Assembly (NCBI RefSeq): GCF_000830885.1
Contig: NZ_CP006951.1
Coordinates: 372,001-436,000, forward strand
From: Dehalococcoides mccartyi CG5
GTDB taxonomy: Bacteria > Chloroflexota > Dehalococcoidia > Dehalococcoidales > Dehalococcoidaceae
Direction of reading: 5' to 3'
DNA: 64,000 bases
Below are positions 8,027-13,504 of this stretch, one piece after another. Each line of letters opens with the position of its first letter. The stretch's first letter is position 1. A program made the position numbers and the translations under genes. Below the pieces are notes generated by a model that saw nothing but the letters and a program-made list of their open reading frames with translations, ran no database searches and had not been told where the DNA came from.

Positions 8027-9319
8027 ATGGGATTATTCGGAACTTCCGGCATCCGCCGCGTGGTGGATGACCGTTTGATGGAAATAGCTCTTAAGGTGGG
8101 GTTTTCTGTAGGGAAACGCTATCGTAGAGTAGTTTTGGCGGGTGACAGCCGTACTTCTACACCGGCTATCAAGCGTATACTGAGCGGGGCTTTGGTTGCC
8201 GCCGGGGCAGATGTGATTGACATCGGATTGGTGCCGACACCTACTTTGGCCTTTATTGCCAGAGATTTTGATGCAGGGCTGATGGTGACTGCTTCGCACA
8301 ATCCGGCTGAATACAACGGTATTAAGTTTCTCAATCCTGACGGCTCGGCTTTCAGTTATCTGCAGCAGCAGGAAATAACCAAAGATGTGGAATCAAGCCG
8401 TTCTCCCTCCCTCAAATGGGACAGTTTCGGCCAGATAAATGCTTTTCCGTGTACAGTTGAAAAGCATATGGAACATATACTTAGCTACCTGCCGGACAAA
8501 TGCCGCCTTAAAGTGGTGGTGGATTGCGGCGGCGGGGCAGCATCCGTGATAACCCCATGGCTGCTTCAGCGTATGGGCAGCCGGGTGATTTCCCTGAATG
8601 ATACTACCCATGGGTTTTTCCCTCACCCGCCTGAGCCATTGGCTGAAAACCTTACCGGGCTTATCCAGACAGTTAGGGAAAGTGATGCCGATTTGGGTAT
8701 TGCCCATGACGGTGATGCTGACCGGATGGTGGCGGTGGATAAACACGGCAACTTTATCTCCGGTGACAAAATGCTGGTGGTTTTTGCCAGAGCGGCCAAG
8801 GCGGATAAAGTGGTTACCACTCTTGACGCTTCCATGTCAGTAGAGGAGATGGGTTTTAAAGTTATACGAACAGCTATAGGTGACAACTACGTCTCAGAAG
8901 AGCTTAAGAGGCAGGGTAATTTCGGGGGTGAACCCTGCGGTGCATGGGTCTTCCCTGAAAGCTCTCTTTGCCCTGACGGTATTTATGCCGCCGCCAGATT
9001 GTTAAATCTGGTTTCACGCCAGCCCTTGGCGGAACTGATTTCAGATATACCGGAATACTCCATGAAGCGGGGGAGTGTGGCCGGTGGCGGTTTGAATTTG
9101 TCTCTGGTAGAGGAATCACTTCAGTGCCTGAATCCGCTTTCATCCAGCTTGCTGGACGGGATTAAACTCAATCTTAAAGATGGCTGGCTGCTTATCCGCC
9201 CTTCGGGTACAGAGCCTAAAATCCGCCTGACGGCAGAAGCCAAAACTCCTGAACAGTGCGAAACTATTTATCAAACAGGTCTTAAATGCCTGAAGAGCTG
9301 TCTTTCCCGGGAGAAATAA
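8027..9319 (+). CDS. glmM: Phosphoglucosamine mutase / phosphohexomutase
   Basis: 430-residue alpha-D-phosphohexomutase. The phosphoserine loop is TASHNPAEYNG, the metal-binding loop DGDADRMVAVD, the sugar-binding loop GGEPCGAWVFPE, and the phosphate-binding loop RPSGTEPKIR, all in the family order. Given the glmS and two GlmU-like genes downstream, it most likely converts glucosamine-6-P to glucosamine-1-P, although archaeal-type relatives are often broad in substrate. It is the first gene of a four-gene operon with gaps of 1, 17 and 0 bases. Confidence 0.88.
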   Translation: MGLFGTSGIRRVVDDRLMEIALKVGFSVGKRYRRVVLAGDSRTSTPAIKRILSGALVAAGADVIDIGLVPTPTLAFIARDFDAGLMVTASHNPAEYNGIKFLNPDGSAFSYLQQQEITKDVESSRSPSLKWDSFGQINAFPCTVEKHMEHILSYLPDKCRLKVVVDCGGGAASVITPWLLQRMGSRVISLNDTTHGFFPHPPEPLAENLTGLIQTVRESDADLGIAHDGDADRMVAVDKHGNFISGDKMLVVFARAAKADKVVTTLDASMSVEEMGFKVIRTAIGDNYVSEELKRQGNFGGEPCGAWVFPESSLCPDGIYAAARLLNLVSRQPLAELISDIPEYSMKRGSVAGGGLNLSLVEESLQCLNPLSSSLLDGIKLNLKDGWLLIRPSGTEPKIRLTAEAKTPEQCETIYQTGLKCLKSCLSREK

Positions 9320-9320
9320 A

Positions 9321-10523
9321 ATGAAGGCAGTCATATTGGCGGCAGGCGAAGGCAGCCGCATGCGTCCCCTGACCTTTACCCGTCCCAAGGTTATGCTTCC
9401 CATTGCGGGCAAGCCTATTTTGGAGCACCTTTTGATGGAGGTCAGCGCCGCCGGTATAAAAGAATTTGTACTGGTAGTGGGTTACCGTGATGAGCAGGTG
9501 CGTTCATATTTTGCGGATGGTGCAAAATGGGGCGTAAAAATCAGCTATTGCCAGCAGACCCGCCAGCTTGGCACTGCCCATGCCCTGAAACAGCTTGAAA
9601 ATCAGCTTGAGGGCAATTTTCTGGTTATGAACGGGGATATACTGGCTGAGTCAGCTGATATTTCCGCTCTGGCCGCAGGTTCTGAAACTACTCTTAGTGT
9701 GCTTGAGGTATCAGACCCAAGCAGTCTGGGAGTGCTTGAAACAGACGGGGACAGAGTAAGATGCATCCATGAAAAGTCTGCCAATCCCCCTGCTAATCTG
9801 GCAAATGCCGGTCTTTACCTGTTTACCCCAAGGATATTTAAAGCTATTTCCGACACTCCCCTCTCACCGCGGGGTGAATATGAAATAACCTCATCTATCC
9901 AGCTTCTTATTGATAACGGCACAGAGGTAGGTTACCGCCGTCTTGTTTACTGGCAGGACGTCAGCTACCCGTGGGATTTGCTGGATGTAAATGCTTCCAT
10001 GCTTAAAAACCTTGCCCCTTGTGTATATGGTACAGTAGAGGAAAATGTGGTTATCAAGGGGACGGTGGAAATAGGCGAAGGCAGCCTTGTCCGTTCGGGT
10101 GCATATATAGAAGGGCCGGTATTAATCGGCAAAAACTGTGACATAGGTCCGAACTGTTATATCCGCCCCTCTACCTCCATAGGGGATAATTGCCGGGTTG
10201 GGGCTTCGGTTGAGATAAAAAACTCTATTATTATGGATAACACCAAAATCCCCCACCTTAATTACGTGGGGGACAGTGTTATCGGGCAAAACTGCAATCT
10301 GGGTGCCGGAACCAAGCTGGCAAATCTGCGTTTTGACGGAGCAGATATTATTGCCGGAGGTGTCAATACCCGCCGCCGTAAGCTGGGGGCTGTACTGGGA
10401 GACGGGGTTGAAACCGGTATTAACGTAAGCCTTAATCCGGGCGTCCTTATAGGCTCCGGCAGCCGTATAGGACCCGGTGCGGTTGTGAGCGGGCTTGTTG
10501 AGCCGAACTCATATATCGGATAA
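9321..10523 (+). CDS. GlmU-like bifunctional nucleotidylyltransferase/acetyltransferase (paralogue 1)
   Basis: 400 residues. An N-terminal nucleotidylyltransferase domain (about 1-230) carries LAAGEGSRMRPLT, PKVMLPIAGKP and the metal-binding NGD at 104-106. The C-terminal left-handed beta-helix (about 240-400) is made of hexapeptide repeats. The segment PHLNYVGDSVIGQNCNLGAG keeps His312 and Tyr315, the pair used for acetyl transfer in E. coli GlmU and in the archaeal Sulfolobus enzyme ST0452. I therefore infer that it acetylates glucosamine-1-P and makes UDP-GlcNAc. The architecture is closer to archaeal sugar-1-P nucleotidylyltransferases than to classical GlmU. Confidence 0.85.
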   Translation: MKAVILAAGEGSRMRPLTFTRPKVMLPIAGKPILEHLLMEVSAAGIKEFVLVVGYRDEQVRSYFADGAKWGVKISYCQQTRQLGTAHALKQLENQLEGNFLVMNGDILAESADISALAAGSETTLSVLEVSDPSSLGVLETDGDRVRCIHEKSANPPANLANAGLYLFTPRIFKAISDTPLSPRGEYEITSSIQLLIDNGTEVGYRRLVYWQDVSYPWDLLDVNASMLKNLAPCVYGTVEENVVIKGTVEIGEGSLVRSGAYIEGPVLIGKNCDIGPNCYIRPSTSIGDNCRVGASVEIKNSIIMDNTKIPHLNYVGDSVIGQNCNLGAGTKLANLRFDGADIIAGGVNTRRRKLGAVLGDGVETGINVSLNPGVLIGSGSRIGPGAVVSGLVEPNSYIG

Positions 10524-10540
10524 GGCGGGGAGAGTAAAAT

Positions 10541-11722
10541 ATGAAACAGGCAGTTATACTGGCGGCTGGTGAGGGACAACGCCTGCGGCCTTTTACCGCC
10601 AGCAAATCAAAGGTGATGCTGTCTATTGCGGGCAAGCCCCTGCTTGAGTATGTTATTGAATCCCTTGCCCAAAACGGCATTCGGGATATTATTCTGGTAG
10701 TGGGCTACAAACGGGAACGTATATTTGACTATTTAGGGCAGGGCGGGCGTTTTGGAGTACAGATAAGCTATGTCCAGCAGCCAAACCAGCTGGGTACAGC
10801 CCATGCCCTCAGACAGGTAAAAGATAAAATAAAAGGGGATTTTCTGGTTCTGAATGGAGATCAGCTTATCAAGCCGTCAACTATAAGGGAGTTTGTAAAA
10901 CAGCCGCCGCAGGCAGTTATGGTAAAAGCCATAAACGGCGAAGACCCCAGCCGTTACGGGGTAGTAACTTCTTCGGGCGGACTTCTAACCTCCATAGAGG
11001 AAAAACCCAGCATAGCCAAAAGCAATTTTATAAATACCGGCATTTACTCTTTTTCAAGGGCAGTGTTTGACTATATTGGTGAGCATCTGGATATGCCGGT
11101 GGTGCTGCAGTCCATGCTCAAAGACGGGCTGGATATACATGTAGCAGAAAGCCAAGGAGCCTGGCTGGATATAGTCTACCCTTGGGATATGCTAAAACTT
11201 AATGCGGTGGTATCAGCCGAACTTAAACCCGGAGTAGCCGGCACTATTGAAAGCGGCGTGGTTATGAAGGGGCCGGTGCGGATTGGCAAGAATACGGTTA
11301 TCCGTTCAAATTCGTATATCGTGGGGCCGGTAATAATAGGTGAAGGCTGTGATATAGGCCCGAGTGTCTGTATTTACCCTTCCACCAGTATTGCAGATAA
11401 TGTAACAGTAGCTCCCTTCAGCCAGATAAAGAATAGCTTGATTTACAGCGGCAACAGTATCGGAGTGGCTTCGGTTATTGAAGATTCGGTCATAGACCGG
11501 GGTTGTGTGATTTGCGGCCAGTTCAGTGCTCCCTCCGCCGAGATAGAAACCCGGATAAATGATGGATTACATAAAATAAAAGTCGGGACTATGATGGGTG
11601 AAGGCTGCACCGTAGGGAATGCCGTAGTCCTTCAGAGCGGTACAGTAGTGGGCAATTCAACCCGTATAGCTCCTTTGAGAACCCTGTCAGGCAATATTCC
11701 TGACGGCAGTCTGGTGGTATAG
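10541..11722 (+). CDS. GlmU-like sugar-1-P nucleotidylyltransferase (paralogue 2, acetyltransferase site lost)
   Basis: 393 residues, a tandem paralogue of the preceding gene. The nucleotidylyltransferase domain is intact (LAAGEGQRLRPFT, SKVMLSIAGKP, LNGDQL) and a beta-helix follows. Where paralogue 1 has the His/Tyr acetyltransferase segment, this protein reads NSIGVASVIEDSVIDRGC, with neither residue. It is probably only a nucleotidylyltransferase, or a partner of paralogue 1; the sugar and nucleotide are unknown. Start at ATG 10541, preceded by GGGGAGAG. Its stop codon abuts the ATG of glmS. Confidence 0.83.
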   Translation: MKQAVILAAGEGQRLRPFTASKSKVMLSIAGKPLLEYVIESLAQNGIRDIILVVGYKRERIFDYLGQGGRFGVQISYVQQPNQLGTAHALRQVKDKIKGDFLVLNGDQLIKPSTIREFVKQPPQAVMVKAINGEDPSRYGVVTSSGGLLTSIEEKPSIAKSNFINTGIYSFSRAVFDYIGEHLDMPVVLQSMLKDGLDIHVAESQGAWLDIVYPWDMLKLNAVVSAELKPGVAGTIESGVVMKGPVRIGKNTVIRSNSYIVGPVIIGEGCDIGPSVCIYPSTSIADNVTVAPFSQIKNSLIYSGNSIGVASVIEDSVIDRGCVICGQFSAPSAEIETRINDGLHKIKVGTMMGEGCTVGNAVVLQSGTVVGNSTRIAPLRTLSGNIPDGSLVV

Positions 11723-13504
11723 ATGTGCGGTATTGTGGGGTACACCGGTAAACGGCAGGCACAGGGTGTTCTGTACGATTGTTTGTGCCGGCTGGAATAC
11801 AGGGGTTATGATTCCTGCGGCATAGCCGTAAACACCCCTGAGGTACAGGTTTTTAAAGATGCAGGTAAAGTCCATGACATACTCCAAAATGCCCCCCTGT
11901 TTAAGGGTACAGCCGGTTTGGGGCATACCCGCTGGGCTACCTGCGGTGAACCCACCCAAATAAATGCCCATCCCCATACAGACTGCACCGGTAAAATCTG
12001 TCTGGTGCATAATGGGGTAATAAACAATTATTCACAACTGCTGAAACGGCTTGAAGGTAACGGCCATAAGATAGTTTCAGATACGGATACCGAGCTTATT
12101 GCCCATTTGATAGAGGAGTACGATAAGGGAGATTTGGAAGAGGCTGTTCGCCTGGCAGTCAAAGAGATAGAGGGTTCGTACGCTCTGGTAGTTATGCGTT
12201 CGGGGGAAAATACCCTGGTAGTAGTGCGGCAGGACAGCCCTTTGGTTATAGGGGTAGGTGACGGAGAATATCTGGTAGCTTCAGATGTACCTGCCATTTT
12301 GGGGTATACCAACCGGGTTATATATCTGGATGAGGGCGACATTGGCACTATAAGCCCGGACAGCCTGAAAATCCGCCGAAACGGTGGGTATATCGTTCCG
12401 TTGGTGGAAAAAGTAAACTGGACTCAGGATGAATCACAGAAAGCCGGCTACAGCCACTATATGCTCAAGGAAATACACGAACAGCCCCGGGTAATTCAAA
12501 ACACCCTGATAAATATGCCTCTGCCGGAGTCTTTTAACAAATCTGAGATACTGGAGCAGAGCCGCAAAACCGGCATACTTTTTCTGGCCTGCGGCAGTTC
12601 CTATCACGCAGCCCTGACTGCCCGTTATCTGGTAGAAGAACATTTGAATATACCTGTTCGGCTGGAGATAGCTTCGGAGTTCAACTATATGCATCGTTTG
12701 CTGCCCTGCAAGCTGGCAGTAGTGCTTACCCAGTCCGGTGAAACCGCAGATGTTTTACGGGCGATGCGCCGTTTGAAGCAAGCCGGCTGTATGGTAGTGG
12801 CTATCACTAACGTGGCAGGCAGTACTGCTGCCCGTTTGGCAGACCATACTATATATACTCAGGCCGGGCCGGAAATAGGGGTGGCGGCTACCAAGAGTTT
12901 TATTGCCCAGCTGATAGTCCTGTATGCTTTGTGTTTTGCCGGTGCATCTGCCGCTAATATCCGTTACCAGGATTATCTAAGCACTATGCGGCTTTTACCC
13001 AGTGTTGTCCAGAGCATACTTGGCAGTCATCAGAATATTAAAGATGCGGCAGTAGAAGTAGCCAAGTCTAAAAGTGCTTTTTTTATAGGGCGTGGGATAA
13101 ACTATCCCATTGCTTTGGAAGGTGCTCTGAAACTTAAAGAGATTTCATACATTCATGCGGAGGGTTATGCGGCAGGGGAACTGAAACACGGGCCGTTTGC
13201 TTTGCTTTCTCCGGAAACACCGGTACTGGCGCTGGTAAGCCGTGACCAAACCTATGAAGCTATGCTGACCGGACTCAGGGAAATAAAGGTGCGTCGTGCC
13301 CCTCTGATTGTTATAGGTGAAGCCGGAGACGAGCAATTGGGTCAGCTGGCAGACCGGGTGATAAGTCTGCCGTCTTTCAACCGCCTGTTTAATCCGATAC
13401 TCTTTACAGTAGTACTCCAACTATTGGCTTATTATGTTGCTTTGGAGCTGGGCTGTTCCATAGATACCCCCCGCAACTTGGCTAAGAGTGTCACTGTCGA
13501 ATAG
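11723..13504 (+). CDS. glmS: Glutamine-fructose-6-phosphate aminotransferase
   Basis: 593 residues. The N-terminal glutamine amidotransferase domain starts MCGIVGYTG, giving the catalytic Cys after Met removal, and includes GHTRWATCGEP and HNGVINN. Two SIS domains follow (LACGSSYHAALTARYL; FIGRGINYPIALEGALKLKEISYIHAE split across the second), and the C-terminus LAKSVTVE is characteristic. It makes glucosamine-6-P, the first committed step to UDP-GlcNAc. It is the last gene of the mutase and GlmU-like operon, with no gap after the preceding stop codon. Confidence 0.96.
   Translation: MCGIVGYTGKRQAQGVLYDCLCRLEYRGYDSCGIAVNTPEVQVFKDAGKVHDILQNAPLFKGTAGLGHTRWATCGEPTQINAHPHTDCTGKICLVHNGVINNYSQLLKRLEGNGHKIVSDTDTELIAHLIEEYDKGDLEEAVRLAVKEIEGSYALVVMRSGENTLVVVRQDSPLVIGVGDGEYLVASDVPAILGYTNRVIYLDEGDIGTISPDSLKIRRNGGYIVPLVEKVNWTQDESQKAGYSHYMLKEIHEQPRVIQNTLINMPLPESFNKSEILEQSRKTGILFLACGSSYHAALTARYLVEEHLNIPVRLEIASEFNYMHRLLPCKLAVVLTQSGETADVLRAMRRLKQAGCMVVAITNVAGSTAARLADHTIYTQAGPEIGVAATKSFIAQLIVLYALCFAGASAANIRYQDYLSTMRLLPSVVQSILGSHQNIKDAAVEVAKSKSAFFIGRGINYPIALEGALKLKEISYIHAEGYAAGELKHGPFALLSPETPVLALVSRDQTYEAMLTGLREIKVRRAPLIVIGEAGDEQLGQLADRVISLPSFNRLFNPILFTVVLQLLAYYVALELGCSIDTPRNLAKSVTVE

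Follow-up and report, generated by a model that had tools for sequence, protein, structure and literature searches.

In Dehalococcoides mccartyi CG5, two tandem genes encode paralogous GlmU-like proteins, P1 and P2, and it has to be asked how the acetyl-transfer and nucleotidyl-transfer reactions of GlmU are divided between them. The answer bears on which enzyme produces UDP-GlcNAc in Dehalococcoides-type cells. Both genes lie in a stretch of 64,000 nucleotides (contig NZ_CP006951.1, positions 372,001 to 436,000 of the forward strand), called the window here, to which the coordinates given for the CG5 genes refer. In an initial annotation of the window, P1 was proposed to keep the acetyl-transfer site and P2 to have lost it, P2 being either a nucleotidylyltransferase for another sugar or a partner of P1 in a hetero-oligomer. 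Here, we compared both proteins with family models, solved and predicted structures and their relatives in Dehalococcoidia and Thermoplasmatota.

Results

The two paralogues are part of a tight operon on the forward strand, a compact unit with the gene order glmM-P1-P2-glmS. The first gene (8027-9319) encodes an archaeal-type phosphoglucosamine mutase, GlmM (TIGR03990 Arch_GlmM; 464.8 bits against a curated cut-off of 439), and is followed by P1 (9321-10523, 400 aa), a GlmU-type protein with a nucleotidyltransferase (NTase) domain and a left-handed beta-helix acetyltransferase domain with an intact His/Tyr site. P2 (10541-11722, 393 aa) is a paralogue with the nucleotidyltransferase only, its acetyltransferase domain being degenerate, and glmS (11723-13504) encodes glutamine--fructose-6-phosphate aminotransferase (TIGR01135, 709.7 bits). 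The coordinates initially given for both tandem reading frames were correct, and the junction sequences place the start of P1 one base beyond the glmM stop and the stop of P2 directly against the ATG of glmS. P1 and P2 are 38% identical over their full length (BLASTP, E 2e-92).

In the 1.36 Mb genome, proteins with an NTP_transferase domain (PF00483) number only three; besides P1 and P2, there is what looks like a mannose-1-phosphate guanylyltransferase relative scoring below its family cut-off, and neither GalU nor RmlA was found. No canonical GlmU was matched in this genome at E 1e-60 and a Glycos_transf_4 protein (MraY/WecA type) is absent from it, which is in keeping with a peptidoglycan-free cell.

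Against TIGR03992, the model of archaeal-type bifunctional GlmU with a curated cut-off of 292.1, P1 scores 562.5 bits, with a match that spans 1-393 of 393 positions, and carries both the His/Tyr pair and the NTase residues expected of a member. P2 also exceeds the cut-off, with 332.6 bits, and lacks the acetyl-transfer His/Tyr; automatic annotation therefore names it bifunctional, which the P2 sequence contradicts. Both proteins fall far below the cut-off of the canonical GlmU model TIGR01173 (366.85), with 184.3 bits for P1 and 135.7 for P2. The predicted single-chain models of P1 and P2 both show the plan of ST0452 of Sulfolobus tokodaii (PDB 2ggo, 5z09, 5z0a), which is the best solved match for either protein in sequence and in predicted fold. 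In these models the NTase domain is predicted well and the C-terminal beta-helix of P2 weakly, with a pLDDT of about 40-60 from residue 330. The P2 model matches 5z09 with a VIA Z of 33.6 over 367 residues at an rmsd of 9.1, a high value that is probably due to the way the domains are oriented or to the poor prediction of the end.

The acetyl-transfer segment of P1, P311-H312-L-N-Y315-V-G-D318 (10251-10274, forward strand), lies directly opposite PHLSYVGD of ST0452, so that H312/Y315 correspond to H308/Y311, which we take to be the acetyl-transfer residues of that enzyme. In the BLASTP alignment of P1 with P2 this segment is crossed without gaps (P1, IKNSIIMDNTKIPHLNYVGDSVIG; P2, IKNSLIYSGNSIGVASVIEDSVID), and at the position of PHLNYVGD P2 reads GVASVIED (G308-V309-A-S-V312-I-E-D315; 11462-11485, forward strand), Val309 and Val312 replacing His312 and Tyr315. 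We aligned 142 distinct P1 and P2 relatives from Dehalococcoidia and Thermoplasmatota together with the window proteins and ST0452, and the His-Tyr pair was present in 67/67 P1-type and 0/77 P2-type proteins, a difference far beyond chance. Other positions of the site follow the same division: practically all P1 have Asn at the position of ST0452 Asn331 and Lys at that of Lys354, where P2 mostly has Ser or Ala and a variable residue, respectively. The proposed retention of the acetyltransferase site in P1 and its loss in P2 were thus borne out, and the loss is an ancient, clade-wide difference and no local mutation.

We also looked for the His/Tyr pair elsewhere in P2. Next to the ungapped alignment of the segment itself, no conserved relocated His was seen. 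One conspicuous histidine, H344, lies downstream in a hairpin region predicted with low confidence and is kept by 27/39 P2 proteins from bacteria and 9/38 from archaea. A replacement by a histidine elsewhere in P2 was rejected, because this hairpin is poorly conserved and because no beta-helix His is conserved across P2. A relocated acetyl-transfer site is therefore unlikely.

The near-invariant residues of P2 lie mostly in the NTase domain (GxGxR, K24, D107, E154-K155 and W208-x-D210), and their roles are presumably those established in the chemistry of the sugar-1-phosphate nucleotidyltransferase superfamily. The nucleotide-binding signature, GxGxR (G10, G12, R14) with K24 (10568-10612, forward strand), is found in every alignment row that has letters there, which is nearly all of the 77 P2 rows, and each of the two metal-ligand aspartates, D107 and the D210 of W208-x-D210, is kept in 76/77. 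With a PF00483 match of 145.6 bits, P2 belongs to this family by domain as well as by catalytic residues and still looks like an enzyme. The motif GT[AG]HA, which Staphylococcus aureus GlmU has too, occurs in 70/77 P2 proteins versus 11/47 bacterial P1, and a loop SxRGExE that is nearly invariant in P1 is missing from P2. Over 666 pairs of bacterial species, identity within the NTase domain is 55% for P1 and 53% for P2, and within the beta-helix 66% for P1 and 50% for P2, so that relaxation is limited to the beta-helix of P2.

P1 of the source genome has all NTase catalytic residues (GxGxR, K23, D106 and D213). Among bacterial P1, the second metal ligand, residue 213 (9957-9959), is Asp in 28/47 and otherwise mainly N, E, H or T. 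Some genomes carry P1 without P2, and in such genomes the residue is mostly other than Asp: G009 (a complete genome), G032, G025 and G035 have T, H, T and E, respectively, in its place. Loss of the residue in P1 hence does not track the presence of P2. If the second metal-ligand Asp is needed, cells with P1 only must use another enzyme; otherwise, the residue is a poor marker. The idea that P1 lost its NTase function once P2 had taken over found no support, as the NTase domain of P1 is conserved as well as that of P2 and the loss of D213 does not go with the presence of P2.

Two of the genomes that were read carry additional gene copies. Genome G010 has two different P1 genes (L178:5053-6261 and L179:6765-7979), one with the second metal-ligand Asp and one with Thr, and only the Thr form adjoins glmM. 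In G009, two glmS genes with identical scores (C1:749584-751362 and 753161-754939) lie 3.6 kb apart, and a third is located elsewhere in the genome.

In a maximum-likelihood tree of 130 proteins, a branch with an SH-aLRT support of 100 sets all P2 proteins, bacterial and archaeal, apart from P1 and ST0452. The bacterial P2 form a single group among the P2 proteins (SH-aLRT 99), and the bacterial P1 are nested among archaeal P1. This topology fits one duplication before both lineages shared these genes. A transfer from archaea to Dehalococcoidia would be the direction suggested by this quick tree, which samples two phyla and ST0452.

P2 is present in 27 of the 148 Dehalococcoidia genomes, and P1 in all 27. 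The two genes adjoin each other in 25 of these; in the exceptions, G006 and G091, P1 lies on a different contig from P2, in G091 as a fragment. In Thermoplasmatota, glmS directly adjoins P2 in 19/19 loci read, and many of these loci continue with glmM and P1 (P2-glmS-glmM-P1 or P2-glmS-P1). P2 and glmS also stay together in genomes of the same family from whose locus P1 has moved away (L177, L181). Canonical GlmU (E <= 1e-60) was detected in 0/27 P2 genomes versus 74/148 genomes of the class, a zero overlap with a hypergeometric chance of 4e-10, uncorrected for shared ancestry. Together, this linkage and the lack of overlap with canonical GlmU indicate that P2 belongs with amino-sugar synthesis and that the lineages concerned use P1 and P2 in place of GlmU.

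A division of the two GlmU reactions was also met elsewhere in the class. Genome G083 encodes a P1 (L184:4882-6174, reverse strand) of which the NTase signature is ruined, LMGSDDSSM replacing LAAGxGxR, and the acetyltransferase site VPHLSYVGD is intact, along with a canonical GlmU reduced to the NTase (L196:992-2119, forward strand); it is the mirror image of the P2 split. Split or truncated canonical GlmU appears in several Dehalococcoidia families, either as an acetyltransferase-only protein of about 250 aa with HxxYxGD and no NTase domain (L197:2407-3198, L198:2251-3048 and L201:2140-2889) or as an NTase-only protein without the acetyl-transfer motif (L199:2701-3738 and L200:977-2140). Dividing both reactions is thus recurrent in Dehalococcoidia.

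Discussion

The explanation towards which we lean, at somewhat better than an even chance, is that P1 acetylates and that P2 is a competent, NTase-only uridylyltransferase of the UDP-GlcNAc pathway with a structural beta-helix. Both proteins would go back to a single, old duplication of a GlmU of archaeal type. P1, best read as a bifunctional or at least acetylating GlmU, would have kept the acetyltransferase, which forms GlcNAc-1-P from GlcN-1-P and acetyl-CoA, next to its NTase domain, and P2 would have lost the acetyltransferase and survived as a dedicated UTP:GlcNAc-1-P (sugar-1-phosphate) uridylyltransferase, converting GlcNAc-1-P and UTP to UDP-GlcNAc, perhaps beside the NTase domain of P1. 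The beta-helix of P2 may have been retained as an assembly domain, for folding and oligomerisation and not for catalysis, and the glmM-P1-P2-glmS operon would encode the pathway from Fru-6-P to UDP-GlcNAc within which P1 and P2 act. We infer that P2 is active, that it uses GlcNAc-1-P with UTP and that its beta-helix has this role. Two sets of observations speak against this reading: the NTase domain of P1 in the source genome is apparently intact, so that P2 would be redundant unless its kinetics or substrate differ, and there are the genomes having P1 only, with an altered second metal-ligand Asp, as well as the SxRGExE loop that P2 misses.

Several other roles for P2 were weighed. It might be a regulatory or structural partner that forms hetero-oligomers with P1 via the beta-helices and senses UDP-GlcNAc or tunes P1, as would agree with the tandem compact layout, with P2 occurring only alongside P1 in Dehalococcoidia and with a shared fold that has GMPPA/GMPPB, the multi-subunit eIF2B and VTC1-KJC2 among its structural matches. 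A precedent is GMPPA, the inactive feedback paralogue and non-catalytic partner of GMPPB (PMC11228364). We nevertheless judge this role rather unlikely, since a non-catalytic subunit would not need the full NTase catalytic set that P2 has, both metal-ligand aspartates included, and archaeal P2 often stays with glmS rather than beside P1. A more elaborate arrangement, in which P2 represents a cross-domain GlmU subfamily in an obligate mixed complex with P1, maybe coupling GlmS, whose gene is the constant neighbour of P2, to the output of UDP-GlcNAc, appears distinctly improbable; if true, it would mean a feedback-controlled GlmS-GlmU assembly in archaea and in peptidoglycan-free bacteria.

Alternatively, P2 could serve surface glycans as an NTase for a different sugar (e.g. 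UDP-Glc, UDP-GalNAc or a dTDP-sugar) and merely share the operon. Its pocket is indeed unlike that of P1, with no SxRGExE loop, Tyr139 for Leu136 and Thr166 for Ala163, and Pro, Ser or Ala precedes Gly-Asp in most relatives; moreover, no GalU or RmlA was found in the genome, the sole other NTP_transferase being mannose-1-phosphate guanylyltransferase-like. Of the initial proposal, the nucleotidylyltransferase stands, its catalytic residues being conserved, but the link of P2 to glmS, glmM and P1 in bacteria as well as archaea, and a GlmU-like GT[AG]HA motif in most P2 proteins, weaken the case for another sugar, and we consider this alternative unlikely. Finally, the missing acetyl-transfer site could be taken as a sign that P2 is a functionless, decaying duplicate, which is hardly credible given that 77 distinct P2 sequences, found in both bacteria and archaea, are open and conserved, form an ancient clade and keep their NTase residues nearly without variation.

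The pair offers a clean case of a bifunctional enzyme that lost one of its halves after duplication, and it is retained in bacteria and archaea. In these genomes it takes the place of canonical GlmU, which elsewhere is an essential enzyme and drug target. Neither TIGR03992 nor a pair of paralogous GlmU proteins in archaea turned up in literature searches. P2 is an uncharacterised subfamily to which the TIGR03992 model gives the name 'bifunctional'; the present analysis corrects an annotation that labels P2 a bifunctional acetyltransferase against the evidence of its sequence.

Among known systems, canonical GlmU (TIGR01173) resembles the pair in its two-domain plan, the GxGxR loop and GT[AG]HA, and P1 shares its acetyl-transfer motif HxxYxGD, but P1 and P2 lie far under the cut-off of that model, and none of the 148 genomes of the class has canonical GlmU (E <= 1e-60) together with P2. 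The split canonical GlmU proteins described above likewise divide both reactions between proteins; they are truncated and of canonical descent, whereas P2 is of full length with a degenerate beta-helix. The GDP-mannose pyrophosphorylase subunits GMPPA and GMPPB, close structural matches of P2, are also a paralogous pair with NTase and beta-helix, but the NTase residues are intact in both window paralogues and it is the acetyltransferase that P2 has lost instead. To our knowledge, the GMPP proteins have no acetyltransferase. ST0452 has the His308/Tyr311 site in common with P1, within whose clade it falls, and differs from P2, where neither the SxRGExE loop nor the acetyl-transfer site is kept. 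In the mutant ST0452 chain 5z09, Asn replaces Tyr97; at the corresponding position of P1, residue 104 (9630-9632), P1 has Asn, and so by nature do 46/47 of the bacterial P1 proteins.
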